From: an uncultured Blautia sp.
GTDB lineage: Bacteria; Bacillota; Clostridia; Lachnospirales; Lachnospiraceae
Length of the DNA: 17,837 bases
Direction: 5' to 3'
Assembly (NCBI GenBank): GCA_934394545.1
Contig: CAKRRG010000056.1
Location: forward strand, 1 to 17,837
Shown here: positions 13,560-17,837 of the stretch, piece by piece
Layout: every line of letters starts with the position of its first letter
Position numbering within the stretch: position 1 is the stretch's first letter
Translations under genes and position numbers: made by a program
Notes under the pieces: generated by a model
The model's database searches: none
What the model saw: the letters and a program-made list of their open reading frames with translations, nothing else
Told to the model about the DNA's origin: nothing

Positions 13560-14756
13560 ATGCCGAATTACCAGAAAACCAAACGAGCCTGTTATATGGG
13601 CTTTATCACCCAGGCCATAGCAGCAAATTTTGCACCTTTGCTGTTTCTGAAATTTCACACAGATTATCATATTTCTCTTGGAAATATTGCGCTGATCTCC
13701 ACCTGCTTTTTCTTTACCCAGCTGCTGGTTGATTTGTTTTGTGCCAGGTTTGTGGACAAAATCGGATATCGCGTGTGCATTGTGACATCTGAGATCAGTT
13801 CCGCTTTAGGACTGGTGGGGCTGGCAATTCTTCCGGAGCTTTTGCCAGATCCTTTTGTGGGAATCATCATCAGTGTTATTGTGTATGCTGTTGGAAGCGG
13901 ACTGATTGAAGTGCTTTGCAGTCCCATTGTGGAAGCATGTCCGTTCGAAAACAAAGAGGCGACCATGAGTCTTCTTCATTCCTTCTACTGCTGGGGCTCT
14001 GTGGGAACCATTGTTGTTTCCACCCTGTTTTTCGCTGTTTTCGGAATGGATAGCTGGAAGTGGCTGGCAGTTTTGTGGGCAATCGTTCCAGCCTTTAATG
14101 TTTACAACTTTGCCACCTGTCCCATCGAACATCTGGTAGATGAAGGGGAAGGCATGAAAATCGGGGAACTGTTTCGTAAGCCTGTATTCTGGATTGCCGT
14201 GTGTCTGATGGTGTGTTCGGGAGCATCGGAGCTGTCCATGTCCCAGTGGGCATCTGCCTATGCAGAGGCGGCACTTGGACTGTCCAAGACCATCGGAGAC
14301 CTGGCTGGTCCCTGTATGTTTGCCATTACGATGGGAATCAGCCGTGTGATCTTTGGAAAATACGGAGATAAAATGGACTTGACGAAATTTATGGCTGGAT
14401 CCGGAATTTTATGCGTATTCTGCTATCTTCTTGCATCTCTGTCCTCCAATCCGGCAGCAGGACTGATCGGCTGTATTGTCTGCGGATTTTCCGTTGGAAT
14501 CATGTGGCCTGGCACTATCAGTATTTCCTCTAAGAAATTTCCAGCAGGCGGAACTGCCATGTTCGCCCTTCTTGCCATGGCAGGAGACCTTGGGGGCAGC
14601 ATAGGCCCTGGAATCGTTGGCCGTGTCACCCAGAATGCCGGAGATAATATCCGCGCAGGTATGGGCGTAGGCCTGATTTTCCCAGTGGTGCTGTTGGTGA
14701 TGGTTTTTCTGCTGAAAAAGCAAAGGCATTATTTAAAATGGGGTGGCGTAAATTAA
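13560..14756 (+). CDS. Major facilitator superfamily transporter, probably for a sugar or small metabolite
   Basis: The 398-residue product has about twelve hydrophobic segments and the MFS motif A-like loop FVDKIGYR (residues 63-70) between segments 2 and 3. A related loop (FGKYGDKMD) occurs in the second half. It is closest in feel to the sugar-transporting MFS proteins of Firmicutes, but the substrate is not readable. AGGAGA (13547-13552) lies seven bases before the ATG. It is divergent from a cupin AraC regulator, which suggests that the two form a regulator-transporter pair. It may handle a product of the neighbouring glycosidases, such as rhamnose or an aglycone, or be unrelated to them. 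The subtilase gene begins 46 bases downstream, possibly co-transcribed. Confidence 0.85.
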   Translation: MPNYQKTKRACYMGFITQAIAANFAPLLFLKFHTDYHISLGNIALISTCFFFTQLLVDLFCARFVDKIGYRVCIVTSEISSALGLVGLAILPELLPDPFVGIIISVIVYAVGSGLIEVLCSPIVEACPFENKEATMSLLHSFYCWGSVGTIVVSTLFFAVFGMDSWKWLAVLWAIVPAFNVYNFATCPIEHLVDEGEGMKIGELFRKPVFWIAVCLMVCSGASELSMSQWASAYAEAALGLSKTIGDLAGPCMFAITMGISRVIFGKYGDKMDLTKFMAGSGILCVFCYLLASLSSNPAAGLIGCIVCGFSVGIMWPGTISISSKKFPAGGTAMFALLAMAGDLGGSIGPGIVGRVTQNAGDNIRAGMGVGLIFPVVLLVMVFLLKKQRHYLKWGGVN

Positions 14757-14802
14757 AGATAAGTGTATTCTGAGTATGCATACGCTGCAAAATGGAGGGA
14801 AT

Positions 14803-16614
14803 ATGCCAGATCAGAAGCTGGATAATCTTTTGAACCTTGCGCTGGATGCCACAGAAGAGGAAAGAGAGAAATCCCGGAATCTGAATGTGGGGTATGAGAA
14901 ACAGGCACGAAAGTGGGAAATTATTGTGAAGTATAGTGAGGTGGGGATTGCCAATGAGGAAGTTTCTGACGGAATGAAATATGGTGCGGGAAATGATAGA
15001 GATTCCGTTGAGATATTACTAGGTGGACCCGAAATTTCCGTGGTATCTCTCCTTGGCGGGTATGCCATTGTGACGATTCCTGAAAGTATGCTGGATGAAT
15101 ATTCCCGGCGCCCCCAGATAGAATTTATAGAAAAGCCCACCCGTCTGTATTTCGAAGACCTGTTTTCCAAAGAGGCAAGCTGTATTACCCAGGTGCAGCG
15201 CGATGAGCCTGGAAATCTACGGCTGACAGGGCGCGGTGTGTTGATCGGAATTGTAGATTCCGGCGTGGATTACCGTCATCCTGCATTTCTCACAGCAGAC
15301 GGAAAGTCCAGAATATTGCGTTTGTGGGATCAGAGCATTCCTGGTAATCCACCGGAGGGCTATGCAACAGGAACTGAATATACCAATGAGGAAATTAATG
15401 AGGCGTTGTCCCTCTCTGTGCAGGAGGGACGGCGCCTTGTTCCGTCTGAAGATGTGAGCGGTCATGGAACCGCTGTGCTTGGAGTGGCAGCTGGCAGCGA
15501 TTTTTCCCGTGGGGCAGTGAACCGGGGTGTGGCATATGAAAGTGACCTTTTGGTTGTAAAAATGGGAATTCCAAGACAGGATTCTTTTCCAAGAACTACA
15601 GAGCTGATGCAAGGTGTGGATTATCTGGTTCGGCAGGCCATACGGCTTGGAAGATCAATTGCGATTAATTTAAGCTTTGGAAATAATTATGGCTCACACA
15701 GAGGCGATTCTCTGCTGGAAACTTACCTGGACAATGTGTCCGGCATGGGGAAAAATGTGATCTGTGTAGGAATGGGAAACAATGGAAATGATGCTCTGCA
15801 TACCGGAGGAAAGCTTTCGCCAGGTGAAATCCAGGAAATTGAACTTGGTGTTGGTGCCTTTGAGCCAACCTTGAATGTGCAGCTTTGGAAAAATTACGAA
15901 GATGAGATGGAAATCTATCTGGAAAATCCAGCCGGGGAGCGTGTTGGCCCCCTTTTTGAAACACTGGGCGCCCAGCGTTGGCAGGCGGGAAATACGGAAC
16001 TTCTGATTTATTATGGAAAACCGGCACCATATCATGTGACGCAGGAGATTTATGTGGATTTTCTGGCGCGGGATGGGAAAAGACCCTATGTAGACAGCGG
16101 TGTGTGGAAAATAATCTTAGCAGCAAGAAATATAAAAAACGGGGAATATTTCCTGTGGCTTCCAGGTGGCAAAACGCTAAACCCAGGCACAGCCTTCTAT
16201 CTTCCACGTCCTCAGGGAACCCTCACAATCCCTGCCACTGCCAGACGCGTGATCAGCGTCGGCGCCTACGACGCCCGTCAAAACACCTATGCTGATTTCT
16301 CTGGCCGCGGCTGTCGTGCCCTCCCCTATCCAAAACCCGACCTTGTCGCTCCCGGTGTTGATATCTATGCTCCCCGCTCTGGTGGAGGCTATGCATCCTT
16401 CACTGGCACCTCCTTTTCCACATCTTTCGTCACCGGCGCCGTTGCTCTTCTTATGGAATGGGGAATCACTCGCCGAAACGATCCCTACCTCTACGGCGAA
16501 AAACTAAAAGCCTATCTCCGTCGTGGCGCAAAAGACTTGCCGGGAGTGGAAAAATTGCCGAATGACTTAATCGGGTGGGGACGATTGTGTCTGAAAAGTA
16601 GCTTGCCAGATTAA
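14803..16614 (+). CDS. Csp-like S8 family subtilisin protease
   Basis: The start at 14803 has GGAGGG (14794-14799) just upstream and gives 603 residues; an ATG at 14776 has no clear ribosome binding site. An N-terminal prodomain-like region of about 135 residues (from LDNLLNLALDATEEERE) precedes the peptidase domain. The triad is complete: D152 in GIVDSGVDYRHP, H221 in SGHGTAVLGVAAG and S537 in FTGTSFSTSF. The insert of more than 300 residues between His and Ser is typical of the clostridial Csp-like subtilases, whose best-known members process spore germination enzymes. Lachnospiraceae often carry several paralogues of unknown role. There is no signal peptide. Codon use changes to C-ending codons between roughly 16160 and 16520 and then returns, which could reflect gene conversion with a paralogue. 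The protease call is firm; a germination role is only a possibility. Confidence 0.9.
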   Translation: MPDQKLDNLLNLALDATEEEREKSRNLNVGYEKQARKWEIIVKYSEVGIANEEVSDGMKYGAGNDRDSVEILLGGPEISVVSLLGGYAIVTIPESMLDEYSRRPQIEFIEKPTRLYFEDLFSKEASCITQVQRDEPGNLRLTGRGVLIGIVDSGVDYRHPAFLTADGKSRILRLWDQSIPGNPPEGYATGTEYTNEEINEALSLSVQEGRRLVPSEDVSGHGTAVLGVAAGSDFSRGAVNRGVAYESDLLVVKMGIPRQDSFPRTTELMQGVDYLVRQAIRLGRSIAINLSFGNNYGSHRGDSLLETYLDNVSGMGKNVICVGMGNNGNDALHTGGKLSPGEIQEIELGVGAFEPTLNVQLWKNYEDEMEIYLENPAGERVGPLFETLGAQRWQAGNTELLIYYGKPAPYHVTQEIYVDFLARDGKRPYVDSGVWKIILAARNIKNGEYFLWLPGGKTLNPGTAFYLPRPQGTLTIPATARRVISVGAYDARQNTYADFSGRGCRALPYPKPDLVAPGVDIYAPRSGGGYASFTGTSFSTSFVTGAVALLMEWGITRRNDPYLYGEKLKAYLRRGAKDLPGVEKLPNDLIGWGRLCLKSSLPD

Positions 16615-16618
16615 ACTA

Positions 16619-16646
16619 TTGTATTTATAGGAAAATATGTTATGAT
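16619..16646 (+). promoter_or_regulatory. Promoter of the HTH-KilA-N gene pair
   Basis: TTGTAT (16619-16624) and TATGAT (16641-16646) are separated by 16 bases, starting five bases after the subtilase stop. The palindromic operator at 16647-16665 directly follows the -10 box. Confidence 0.6.
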
Positions 16647-16665
16647 ATATACACATTGTGTATAT
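16647..16665. promoter_or_regulatory. 19-bp palindromic operator over the predicted transcription start
   Basis: ATATACACA (16647-16655), a single T, and TGTGTATAT (16657-16665) form a perfect 9-1-9 inverted repeat. It abuts the -10 box and covers the expected +1, the position used by small autorepressing HTH proteins and antitoxins. The HTH protein encoded 18 bases downstream is the natural candidate ligand. Confidence 0.6.
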
Positions 16666-16682
16666 GATAGGGAAGAACAAAT

Positions 16683-16889
16683 ATGGAAATAAAAGATGAA
16701 ATAAAAGAATTACGCGAAAGTACAGGGATGAATAGAAAAGAATTCTGTGAGCATTTCGGAATTCCTTACAGAACCGTAACGGAATGGGAAAGAGGAACAA
16801 GGAAAATGCCGGATTATGTTTTAAGATTATTGGCATACAGGATAAAAATGGAAGGTTTTGATGGAAAGGAAAAAGTGGATGAAGAATAG
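16683..16889 (+). CDS. Small XRE-like helix-turn-helix protein, candidate autorepressor or antitoxin
   Basis: The 68-residue protein begins MEIKDEIKELRESTGMNRKE and carries a helix-turn-helix at residues about 16-50 (FCEHFGIPYRTVTEWERGTR), then a short charged tail. This type of small HTH protein is common in Lachnospiraceae, often next to accessory or toxin-like genes. AGGGAA lies at 16669-16674. The gene is preceded by its own promoter and a palindromic operator, and it overlaps the start of the KilA-N gene by 11 bases, so the two should be co-translated. This layout resembles a toxin-antitoxin or phage-type control pair, with this protein as repressor. DNA binding is well supported; the antitoxin role is inference. 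Confidence 0.8.
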   Translation: MEIKDEIKELRESTGMNRKEFCEHFGIPYRTVTEWERGTRKMPDYVLRLLAYRIKMEGFDGKEKVDEE

Positions 16890-17745
16890 GATAATTAATG
16901 TACAAGATGTACCAATTTCGATTTCAGAACAAAAATTGGATGATTATATTTGTATTACGGATATTGCAAAAGCTAAAACAGGCGAATCACGTAGTGCCGA
17001 TGTTGTGAAAAACTGGCTGCGAAATAGAAATACATTAGAATTTTTAGGAACGTGGGAAATGATTTATAATCCTGATTTTAAAGTGGTCGAATTCGACCAC
17101 TTTAAATCTGAAGCAGGTTTACATACATTTGTATTAAGCGTTGCAGAATGGATTAATAAAACGAATGCGATAGGATTATATGTAAAGCGTGGAAAATATG
17201 GCGGTACGTATGCTCATAAAGACATTGCCTTTGAATTCGCATCTGCAATCAGTCCGGTTTTTAAATTGTATTTGATAAAAGAATTCCAGCGGTTGAAGGA
17301 AGAAGAAAATAATTTAGAGCAAAGTGAATGGAATGCTAAACGATTTTTGACTAAAAATAATTATTTGATTCAGACGGACGCAGTAAAAAAATATTTGATT
17401 CCGCGGATGAATTATAGAGAGAATCTACAATGGCTGGCATATGCAGAAGAAGCGGATATATTAAATGTGGCATTGTTTGGATTTACAGCAAAAGCGTGGA
17501 GAGAAGCTAATCCTGAGTTATCAAAAAAGAACAATGTCAGAGATTTTGCATCTATCAATGAATTGACAGTGCTTTCCAATCTGGAATCTCATAATGCGCA
17601 GATGATTAAAGAAGGAAAGAAAAAAGAAGAACGGTTTAAAATTCTACAGGAAATTGCAGAATATCAGTTGGATATTCTGAATACTGCAGAGCAGATTAAA
17701 ATGCTAGAGGATGAGAAGCAGATTGGCGAAACAGTGTTTAGCTAA
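16879..17745 (+). CDS. KilA-N domain protein
   Basis: The start at 16879 (AAAGGA eight bases upstream) gives 288 residues; ATG 16861 is an alternative adding six. Residues about 20-140 form a KilA-N domain: YICITDIAKAK, VVKNWLRNRNTLEFLGTWE, AGLHTFVLSVAEWINKTNAIG, GGTYAHKDIAFEFASAI and SPVFKLYLIKEFQRL. KilA-N is a DNA-binding fold of phage and large DNA virus proteins; bacterial chromosomal copies are of unclear function. The rest is hydrophilic, with a charged, probably coiled-coil end (about 235-288). The gene overlaps the small HTH gene upstream. A perfect 30-bp palindrome spans codons 67-76. The gene is more AT-rich than the glycosidase region, which points to acquired DNA. The family is clear; the role could be a toxin, phage-related regulator or defence component. 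Confidence 0.85.
   Translation: MKNRIINVQDVPISISEQKLDDYICITDIAKAKTGESRSADVVKNWLRNRNTLEFLGTWEMIYNPDFKVVEFDHFKSEAGLHTFVLSVAEWINKTNAIGLYVKRGKYGGTYAHKDIAFEFASAISPVFKLYLIKEFQRLKEEENNLEQSEWNAKRFLTKNNYLIQTDAVKKYLIPRMNYRENLQWLAYAEEADILNVALFGFTAKAWREANPELSKKNNVRDFASINELTVLSNLESHNAQMIKEGKKKEERFKILQEIAEYQLDILNTAEQIKMLEDEKQIGETVFS
17077..17106. repeat. Perfect 30-bp palindrome inside the KilA-N gene
   Basis: TTTAAAGTGGTCGAA (17077-17091) is followed immediately by its exact reverse complement (17092-17106), with no spacer. The element begins and ends on codon boundaries (codons 67-76, peptide FKVVEFDHFK), so the minus strand in the same register encodes the same peptide. The centre is GAATTC. It could extrude a cruciform or serve as a dyad binding site; a coding coincidence is the alternative. 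Confidence 0.85.
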
Positions 17746-17750
17746 TTTGA

Positions 17751-17837
17751 GAATCTTCCAAAATTTATATCAAAAGAAAATTTTATTTGAGTTGGTCACG
17801 CTATCTGAAATTTATGCGAATTGATGATATAGATGAA
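17751..17837 (+). pseudogene. Start-less fragment resembling the DUF1016/YhcG nuclease family, cut by window end
   Basis: The frame is open from 17751 (after a TGA at 17748-17750) to the window end, with no start codon before an internal ATG at 17814. From 17787 it reads LSWSRYLKFMRIDDIDE, which resembles the conserved LSWSHY...(I/V).D segment of DUF1016/YhcG-type PD-(D/E)XK nucleases. That segment is normally internal and preceded by over a hundred residues. Here only 55 bases separate the KilA-N stop (17745) from it (17791 onward excluded, the match begins at 17787 and the stop ends at 17745, a gap of 41 bases), so the N-terminal part is missing. A decayed gene or a truncated remnant is likeliest. 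The match is short and from memory. Confidence 0.4.

Follow-up and report, generated by a model that had tools for sequence, protein, structure and literature searches.

A palindromic DNA site within the codons of KilA-N genes and its free-standing copies in phages: a possible cognate self-recognition element

Results and Discussion

The stretch of DNA analysed here (17,837 nucleotides from an uncultured Blautia sp., called the window below) contains a KilA-N gene with a perfect 30-bp palindrome within its codons. Sequence comparisons show that the DNA of this palindrome is under selection, that its variable arms are linked to the N-terminal module of the protein, that phages share these barcodes, and that phages in which the gene was not detected have gained the element cleanly in one case. 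We propose that the palindrome is a duplex-DNA site with a barcode, recognised by the KilA-N protein of the same gene, and that it may serve as an immunity pass which phages have copied as counter-defence. We give about even credence to this explanation.

The palindrome and the gene containing it

The palindrome TTTAAAGTGGTCGAATTCGACCACTTTAAA (17077..17106, no strand assigned) has 15 of 15 complementary pairs and a spacer of 0, as the preliminary description had stated, and is the longest of four inverted repeats with 100% complementarity among the ten inverted repeats listed. It lies in register with the KilA-N ORF and, counting from the ATG at 16879, fills codons 67-76 (74-83 if the TTG at 16858 is the start). 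In this register FKVVEFDHFK is read from both strands, again in agreement with the earlier account. The chance figure given there (17,837 x 4^-15 = 1.7e-5) is correct; for this peptide, written with the codon usage of eleven ORFs of the window, a perfect dyad still has a probability of only 5e-5.

From left to right, the proposed cognate self-recognition site, delimited by inverted-repeat search and conservation, comprises the constant end TTTAA (17077..17081, plus strand), a variable arm of the AGTGG type (17082..17086, plus strand), the constant core TCGAATTCGA (17087..17096, no strand assigned), a second variable arm, of AGTGG type on the minus strand (17097..17101), and the right constant end (17102..17106, minus strand). 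The ends were assigned from the conservation of pairs in 125 homologous contexts and from free-standing sites, the arms, which are the proposed specificity barcode, by arm comparison, and the core from the 125 contexts and from viral pattern scans with a control core.

The KilA-N gene (16879..17745, plus strand) encodes 288 amino acids. The ORF matches PF04383 with 79.5 bits (gathering cutoff 23.8), and KilA-N is the only domain recognised in the protein. The PADLOC candidate PDC-S22, a candidate phage-defence family, matches the protein with an E value of 2.6e-121 over positions 1-278 of the 281 in the profile, and was the sole PADLOC model for it at E up to 0.1. A model for BstA is present in PADLOC as well. 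The annotation obtained from PHROG 2657 is 'transcriptional regulator'.

The N-terminal module (16879..17193, plus strand), a predicted DNA-binding domain, carries the palindrome and is swapped as a unit in relatives. The C-terminal part (17194..17742, plus strand) is helical and is nearly identical between the genes of some relatives despite differing N-modules. AlphaFold predicts a helix at residues 69-78 (17083..17112, plus strand), mostly encoded by the palindrome, with a mean pLDDT of 96 over residues 61-70 and of 92 over residues 71-80. The protein shows a structural match to DNA-binding domains; a sequence search for solved structures gave none at E up to 0.01. Over its whole length (16879-17742) the model weakly resembles DdrC of Deinococcus, a DNA-binding protein of the DNA-damage response (Foldseek E 1.2e-3).

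Conservation of the palindrome in homologous genes

Homologous genes were taken from the best 80 loci of a genome scan with protein patterns excluding the palindrome, from 44 loci added by a viral scan, and from a small number of records of plasmids, phages and E. coli. Restriction to alignments that cover the ten codons with neither indel nor N left 137 contexts, which became 125 once identical ones had been merged; five loci with in-frame stops are omitted from alignment A1.

Between 11 and 15 of the 15 pairs are present in 123 of the 125 distinct in-gene contexts, and the remaining two, which were retained in the set, have 2 and 3 pairs. The homologous ten codons contain 13.3 of 15 pairs on average, compared to 2.7-5.3 in windows slid by 15-60 bases, where the maximum was 9 pairs (n=125). 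Pairs 4 and 5 are retained in 98 and 99% of the contexts, the central pairs 14 and 15 in 88 and 98%, pair 13 in 67% (GAATTT variants) and pair 2 in 54%. The codon position of the dyad is unchanged from Bacillota to Bacteroidota and Pseudomonadota. It is absent from a remote KilA-N stretch in locus L108 (35% identity), and no clean empty site inside the gene was found among the homologues aligned.

In the 52 contexts encoding FKVVEFDHF[K/R], which reach loci of about 56% protein identity, the effective codon number is 1.00-1.08 at eight of the ten codons and 1.30 and 1.99 at the other two, compared to about 2-4 at four-fold sites flanking the palindrome codons. This synonymous conservation, which the preliminary description had proposed to measure, argues for selection on the DNA. 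Furthermore, 37 different 7-nt left-arm sequences occur in the 125 contexts, and 14 of these sequences have a partner that is complementary at all 7 nt; stem changes among distant homologues alter the peptide yet stay complementary. Such alternative stems are GGTAAC/GTTACC (L061), CTGGTC/GACCAG (L119) and, likewise complementary, AACATGGTG/CACCATGTT (L142). A truncated gene fragment in L061 has a stop codon within the dyad, with 14 of 15 pairs and a centre that has changed on both sides, from GAATTC to TAATTA.

Because synonymous sites keep the dyad, even through amino-acid changes, these alignments show the palindrome DNA itself to be selected as a symmetric site, as had been anticipated for the case that synonymous sites hold the dyad. 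Chance and protein conservation fail to account for the palindromes compared here. The earlier idea that the VVEFDHF peptide drives the coincidence in part finds no support, because other dyads are retained by homologues whose peptides differ.

Locus L061 (692-2620) also contains tandem truncated N-terminal KilA-N fragments (ORFs of 67, 92 and 99 aa) in front of a full-length gene. Each fragment has a different palindrome; these might be silent barcodes or decayed copies.

Exchange of the N-terminal module

The predicted DNA-binding module at the N-terminus swaps between genes along with its palindrome, and the type of the barcode arm is linked to the N-module; this comparison also draws on genes whose loci were retrieved with a DNA pattern. 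The profiled pairs have their module break about 110 bp after the palindrome start, some 30 codons downstream of the palindrome. Recombination at the centre of the palindrome was considered as driver of the swaps and rejected, the break falling downstream and outside the palindrome. With the site inside the coding sequence of its recogniser, protein and site would be kept matched during module swaps, which shows how such a pair could stay together: the site is written into the recogniser's codons.

Several roles had been suggested for the case that the DNA is selected. A site for the KilA-N protein fits the sequence data best. The upstream HTH protein had been named as an alternative reader. 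In the window its small HTH_3 gene (16683..16889, plus strand) overlaps the start of the KilA-N gene, but such a companion is found in a minority of relatives: because a homologue lies near the KilA-N gene in 6 of 80 loci only, the HTH protein is unlikely to read the site. A recombination target or a cruciform is unneeded, because the module break is so far downstream of the palindrome.

Free-standing copies in phages

Viral contigs were scanned with the pattern TTTAAN5TCGAATTYGAN5TTARA. At least 120 viral stretches, genes and free sites together, match with the core TCGAATTYGA, compared to 3 matches for the control core TCGATATYGA in the same pattern. In the loci then collected, some of which overlap, 105 of 327 dyads lie outside KilA-N matches, and merging left 75 distinct free contexts that agree with the pattern of the scan; free means outside the tblastn matches of five KilA-N queries, and remote KilA-N relatives could hide among these sites.

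The arms of free sites are largely those of the genes. The in-gene set of 52 arms includes 110 of the 150 free half-arms (2000 positional shuffles gave 34.6 +/- 4.8 and at most 51), and of the 51 distinct free arms 27 also occur in KilA-N genes, 2.6 being expected. Free sites are often hybrids, with arms pairing at 3.3 of 5 positions (shuffled partners 1.9, in-gene sites 4.4), which weakens the case for simple symmetric recognition.

Among 62 flank-distinct free sites, 17 lie at most 6 bp from the 3' end of an ORF (random 2.4%) and none that close to a 5' end (random 2.2%); 7 are inside ORFs that encode 100 aa or more. Grouped by their flanks, the sites gave 11 clusters with more than one member, and in 7 of these clusters the members have different site sequences. 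In the six clusters aligned, ends and core are constant and the arms change in place, and one half-site can differ while the other half-site and the flanks remain alike. Some free sites occur in close pairs, and some adjacent copies share TTTAAA. The presence of free-standing copies in phages points to a role in defence or counter-defence and suggests a tag with the meaning 'do not attack me'.

Some of these sites have unusual surroundings. In one viral contig (L250:3099-3241) a stretch that looks like a tRNA by eye lies between two different palindromes of this kind, and in two further loci (L232:1617-1646 and L233:13028-13057) the palindromes are in frame within other ORFs, encoding SNSLEFDGIK and FNSLEFEGIK. 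In Bacteroidota genome stretches, some of them included twice, 54 dyads were scored, 44 in KilA-N matches and 10 outside. Among these 10, the dyads of L174 and L351 are one site, that of L164 is the upstream site of L048 (see below), and those of L167 and L168 seem to be AT-rich dyads due to chance.

Filled and empty sites in named phages

Four S. pseudintermedius phages (SP120, phiSP38-1, SpT5 and SN11) have a site that starts at the dut stop codon. Pel11, SNUABM-J and QT1 have the same dut end and the same downstream leader with nothing between them, and in SpT152, phiSP15-1 and phiSP119-3 the same leader follows another gene end, with the site absent. In total, 4 filled and 6 empty phages were inspected behind dut. 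Compared to Pel11, SP120 has 27 bp more, a clean insertion of the element behind dut. The KilA-N protein is encoded in 17 phage records (tblastn E 1e-5), and neither the dut-site phages nor Streptococcus phage Javan527 are among these.

Staphylococcus phage EW has a KilA-N gene, whose arms are CGTG/CGCC. Nine free sites from staphylococcal phages or from phages with related flanks were aligned; 7 of them show these arms, with L247 and L262 differing. Javan527 has a CTGG/GGGG hybrid site and Javan118 and Javan523 have CGTG/GGGG, all behind a small gene. The KilA-N genes of streptococcal satellites have the arms CTGG (Javan588, Javan625), CTAG/CTGG (Javan279) and CGATTG (Javan97), and the CTGG arm is thus present in 3 of the 4 inspected. 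None of the streptococcal genes inspected had the GGGG or CGTG arms that the streptococcal phages carry. To judge from these sequences, the host match of the arms is partial.

The small streptococcal phage gene of 88 aa (L319:1836-2102) occurs in varied genomic contexts, with the palindrome just after its stop codon in most of the cases inspected. Javan179 has the 88-aa gene without palindrome, but is not a clean empty site because its other flank differs. Phage 2638A is uninformative, because the sequence upstream of the shared gene is different. A flank pattern for empty sites in one phage group matched only three filled relatives.

Proposed function and alternative explanations

The site would thus consist of constant ends (TTTAA), a nearly constant core and variable barcode arms of 4-5 nt. 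A dimer of the KilA-N protein may bind it via the N-terminal module. The protein would act on replicating foreign DNA in the manner of abortive infection and spare DNA with the cognate site, so that the element on which the gene resides escapes harm. Phages without the gene would pass as self by maintaining forged copies, many of which combine two different half-sites and some of which occur as close pairs. Somewhat more tentatively, we suggest a barcoded 'passport' system extending from Bacillota to Bacteroidota and Pseudomonadota, in which the forged passes of phages track the barcodes of their hosts. The letters of the pass would double as codons for a helix in the domain that recognises it, allowing joint change of pass and reader.

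The main rival explanation is an intragenic operator, by which a KilA-N regulator represses its own gene, the free sites being other operators. GalR and LacI use internal operators, and both the structural match to DNA-binding domains and the PHROG annotation agree with such a role. Moreover, in L048, L068 and L109 further palindromes are situated 31-38 bp upstream of the start codon (L048:3913-3942, L068:3932-3961, L109:32-61), with arms equal to the in-gene arms in L048 and L068; upstream and in-gene arms do not match in L109 and L061. The upstream palindrome of L048 overlaps the stop codon of an apparent type III R-M mod gene. However, the internal site keeps to the same ten codons in nearly all contexts, and a further upstream dyad was found in 4 of 80 loci (L038, L048, L061, L068). 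Free sites cluster at 3' ends of ORFs and none of the 62 lies within 6 bp of a 5' end, the named phages bearing sites are outside the 17 records encoding the gene, and arms change in place between related phages, all of which speak against an operator. We regard an operator as rather unlikely. Alternatively it might be that the palindrome is a mobile unit of 27-30 bp that inserts widely and settled early in the KilA-N gene. The clean gain of the element alone behind dut, with empty sites in relatives, would fit such a unit, as would the free sites within longer ORFs and the TTTAAA common to some adjacent copies. The copy in the gene, however, is not recent, given its constant codons from Bacillota to Bacteroidota and Pseudomonadota and its compensatory stem changes, and transposition alone is inadequate where one half-site changes and the flanks remain alike. 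No enzyme that would mobilise the unit came to light in scans made for other purposes. We regard the mobile unit as quite improbable.

An RNA hairpin in the mRNA, acting in autogenous translational control or RNA processing, could explain why broken pairs are mostly G-U in the mRNA sense (116 compared to 39 A-C). Of these G-U pairs, however, 92 are at positions 2 and 13, and elsewhere A-C (39) exceeds G-U (24). In free sites at ORF 3' ends position 2 has the non-wobble orientation in 9 cases versus 3 (n=17), and pairs 14 and 15, which would be in the loop, are among the well-retained ones. Rfam gave no match up to E 1 within 14500-17837. On the wobble test, the orientation and Rfam we rejected the hairpin, which is very unlikely. 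As the breaks in the stem show no G-U preference, it seems from the sequences that duplex DNA rather than mRNA is read at the palindrome. The presence of palindromes in phages could also mean that they are sites of attack, at which the KilA-N protein cuts or blocks the DNA bearing them. In this case the KilA-N gene would be among the targets of its own protein, and phages should be losing the site, for which any mutation would do. Yet the sites retain their ends and core while the arms vary, and one gain was observed. We regard an attack site as very unlikely.

If the explanation as an immunity pass is true, phages carry non-coding counter-defence tags of 27-30 bp that are invisible to protein-based searches for anti-defence genes, and from its barcode one could tell which defence allele a tag evades. 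The palindrome also offers a mechanism-level handle on the large KilA-N family, whose members were otherwise recognised in this analysis only as regulators or defence candidates.

Relation to known systems

BstA, a KilA-N(-like) defence protein with an in-gene cognate DNA immunity element termed aba (Owen et al. 2021, PMC8585504), is the one characterised precedent that we found for this architecture. Aba comprises 63 bp over the start codon with terminal direct CCCGCC repeats, is reported to act as DNA and not as RNA or peptide, and protects phage P22 when moved into it in the laboratory; BstA variants have cognate elements (PMC8585504). Aba has also been provided in trans from a plasmid, and its full effect reportedly needs no transcription. 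Both systems have a single-gene KilA-N(-like) protein and a short cis DNA element in its own locus, situated partly or wholly in the coding sequence. Aba differs from the palindrome in sequence, symmetry and position: here, a 30-bp palindrome with constant core and variable barcode is located about 200 bp into the gene, is spread over several phyla and has natural free-standing copies in phages. CCCGCC was not found around the KilA-N start in the window, the element being at codons 67-76 instead.

The PDC-S22 model, although matching the protein over nearly its full length, is silent on a DNA element or mechanism. In Streptococcus suis, PDC-S22 is reported to co-occur with other systems (PMC12813430). 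In the titles and abstract openings given by searches of open-licence PMC we found no mention of this palindrome in KilA-N genes or phages. In-gene DNA immunity elements are already known; on this coverage, the palindromic barcode, the spread over several phyla and the natural phage copies are apparently new.

The intragenic operators of lac and gal are likewise symmetric regulator sites inside coding sequence. The palindrome shares this feature with them, but is barcoded, lies in the codons of the recogniser's own N-terminal domain and has phage-borne copies clustered at 3' ends of genes. HsdS of type I R-M systems has swappable target-recognition domains; as there, a recognition module is exchanged against a constant partner part, but unlike in HsdS the codons of the module also contain the DNA site proposed for it. 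Rickettsia palindromic elements and REPs are short palindromes found between genes and in frame inside genes. Unlike these, the KilA-N palindrome is fixed at one homologous position of a single gene family in several phyla and shows compensatory evolution.

Gene neighbourhood and further homologues

One search yielded at least 7,999 KilA-N homologues. Among 97 neighbour proteins scanned (out of 143 on a list made by script), housekeeping families prevailed, accompanied by some R-M, recombinase, RhuM, subtilase and PDC or other defence-candidate models. As the neighbours are mostly housekeeping proteins, the defence-island test is weak.

The exact 30-mer had no match in 5,426 E. coli genomes. 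Only one of these genomes has a DNA-level relative of the gene in locus L136. This relative (L324:4962-7167) is an annotated gene located before dinD, and its dyad has 12 of 15 pairs and the different core GTGGAATTACAC.
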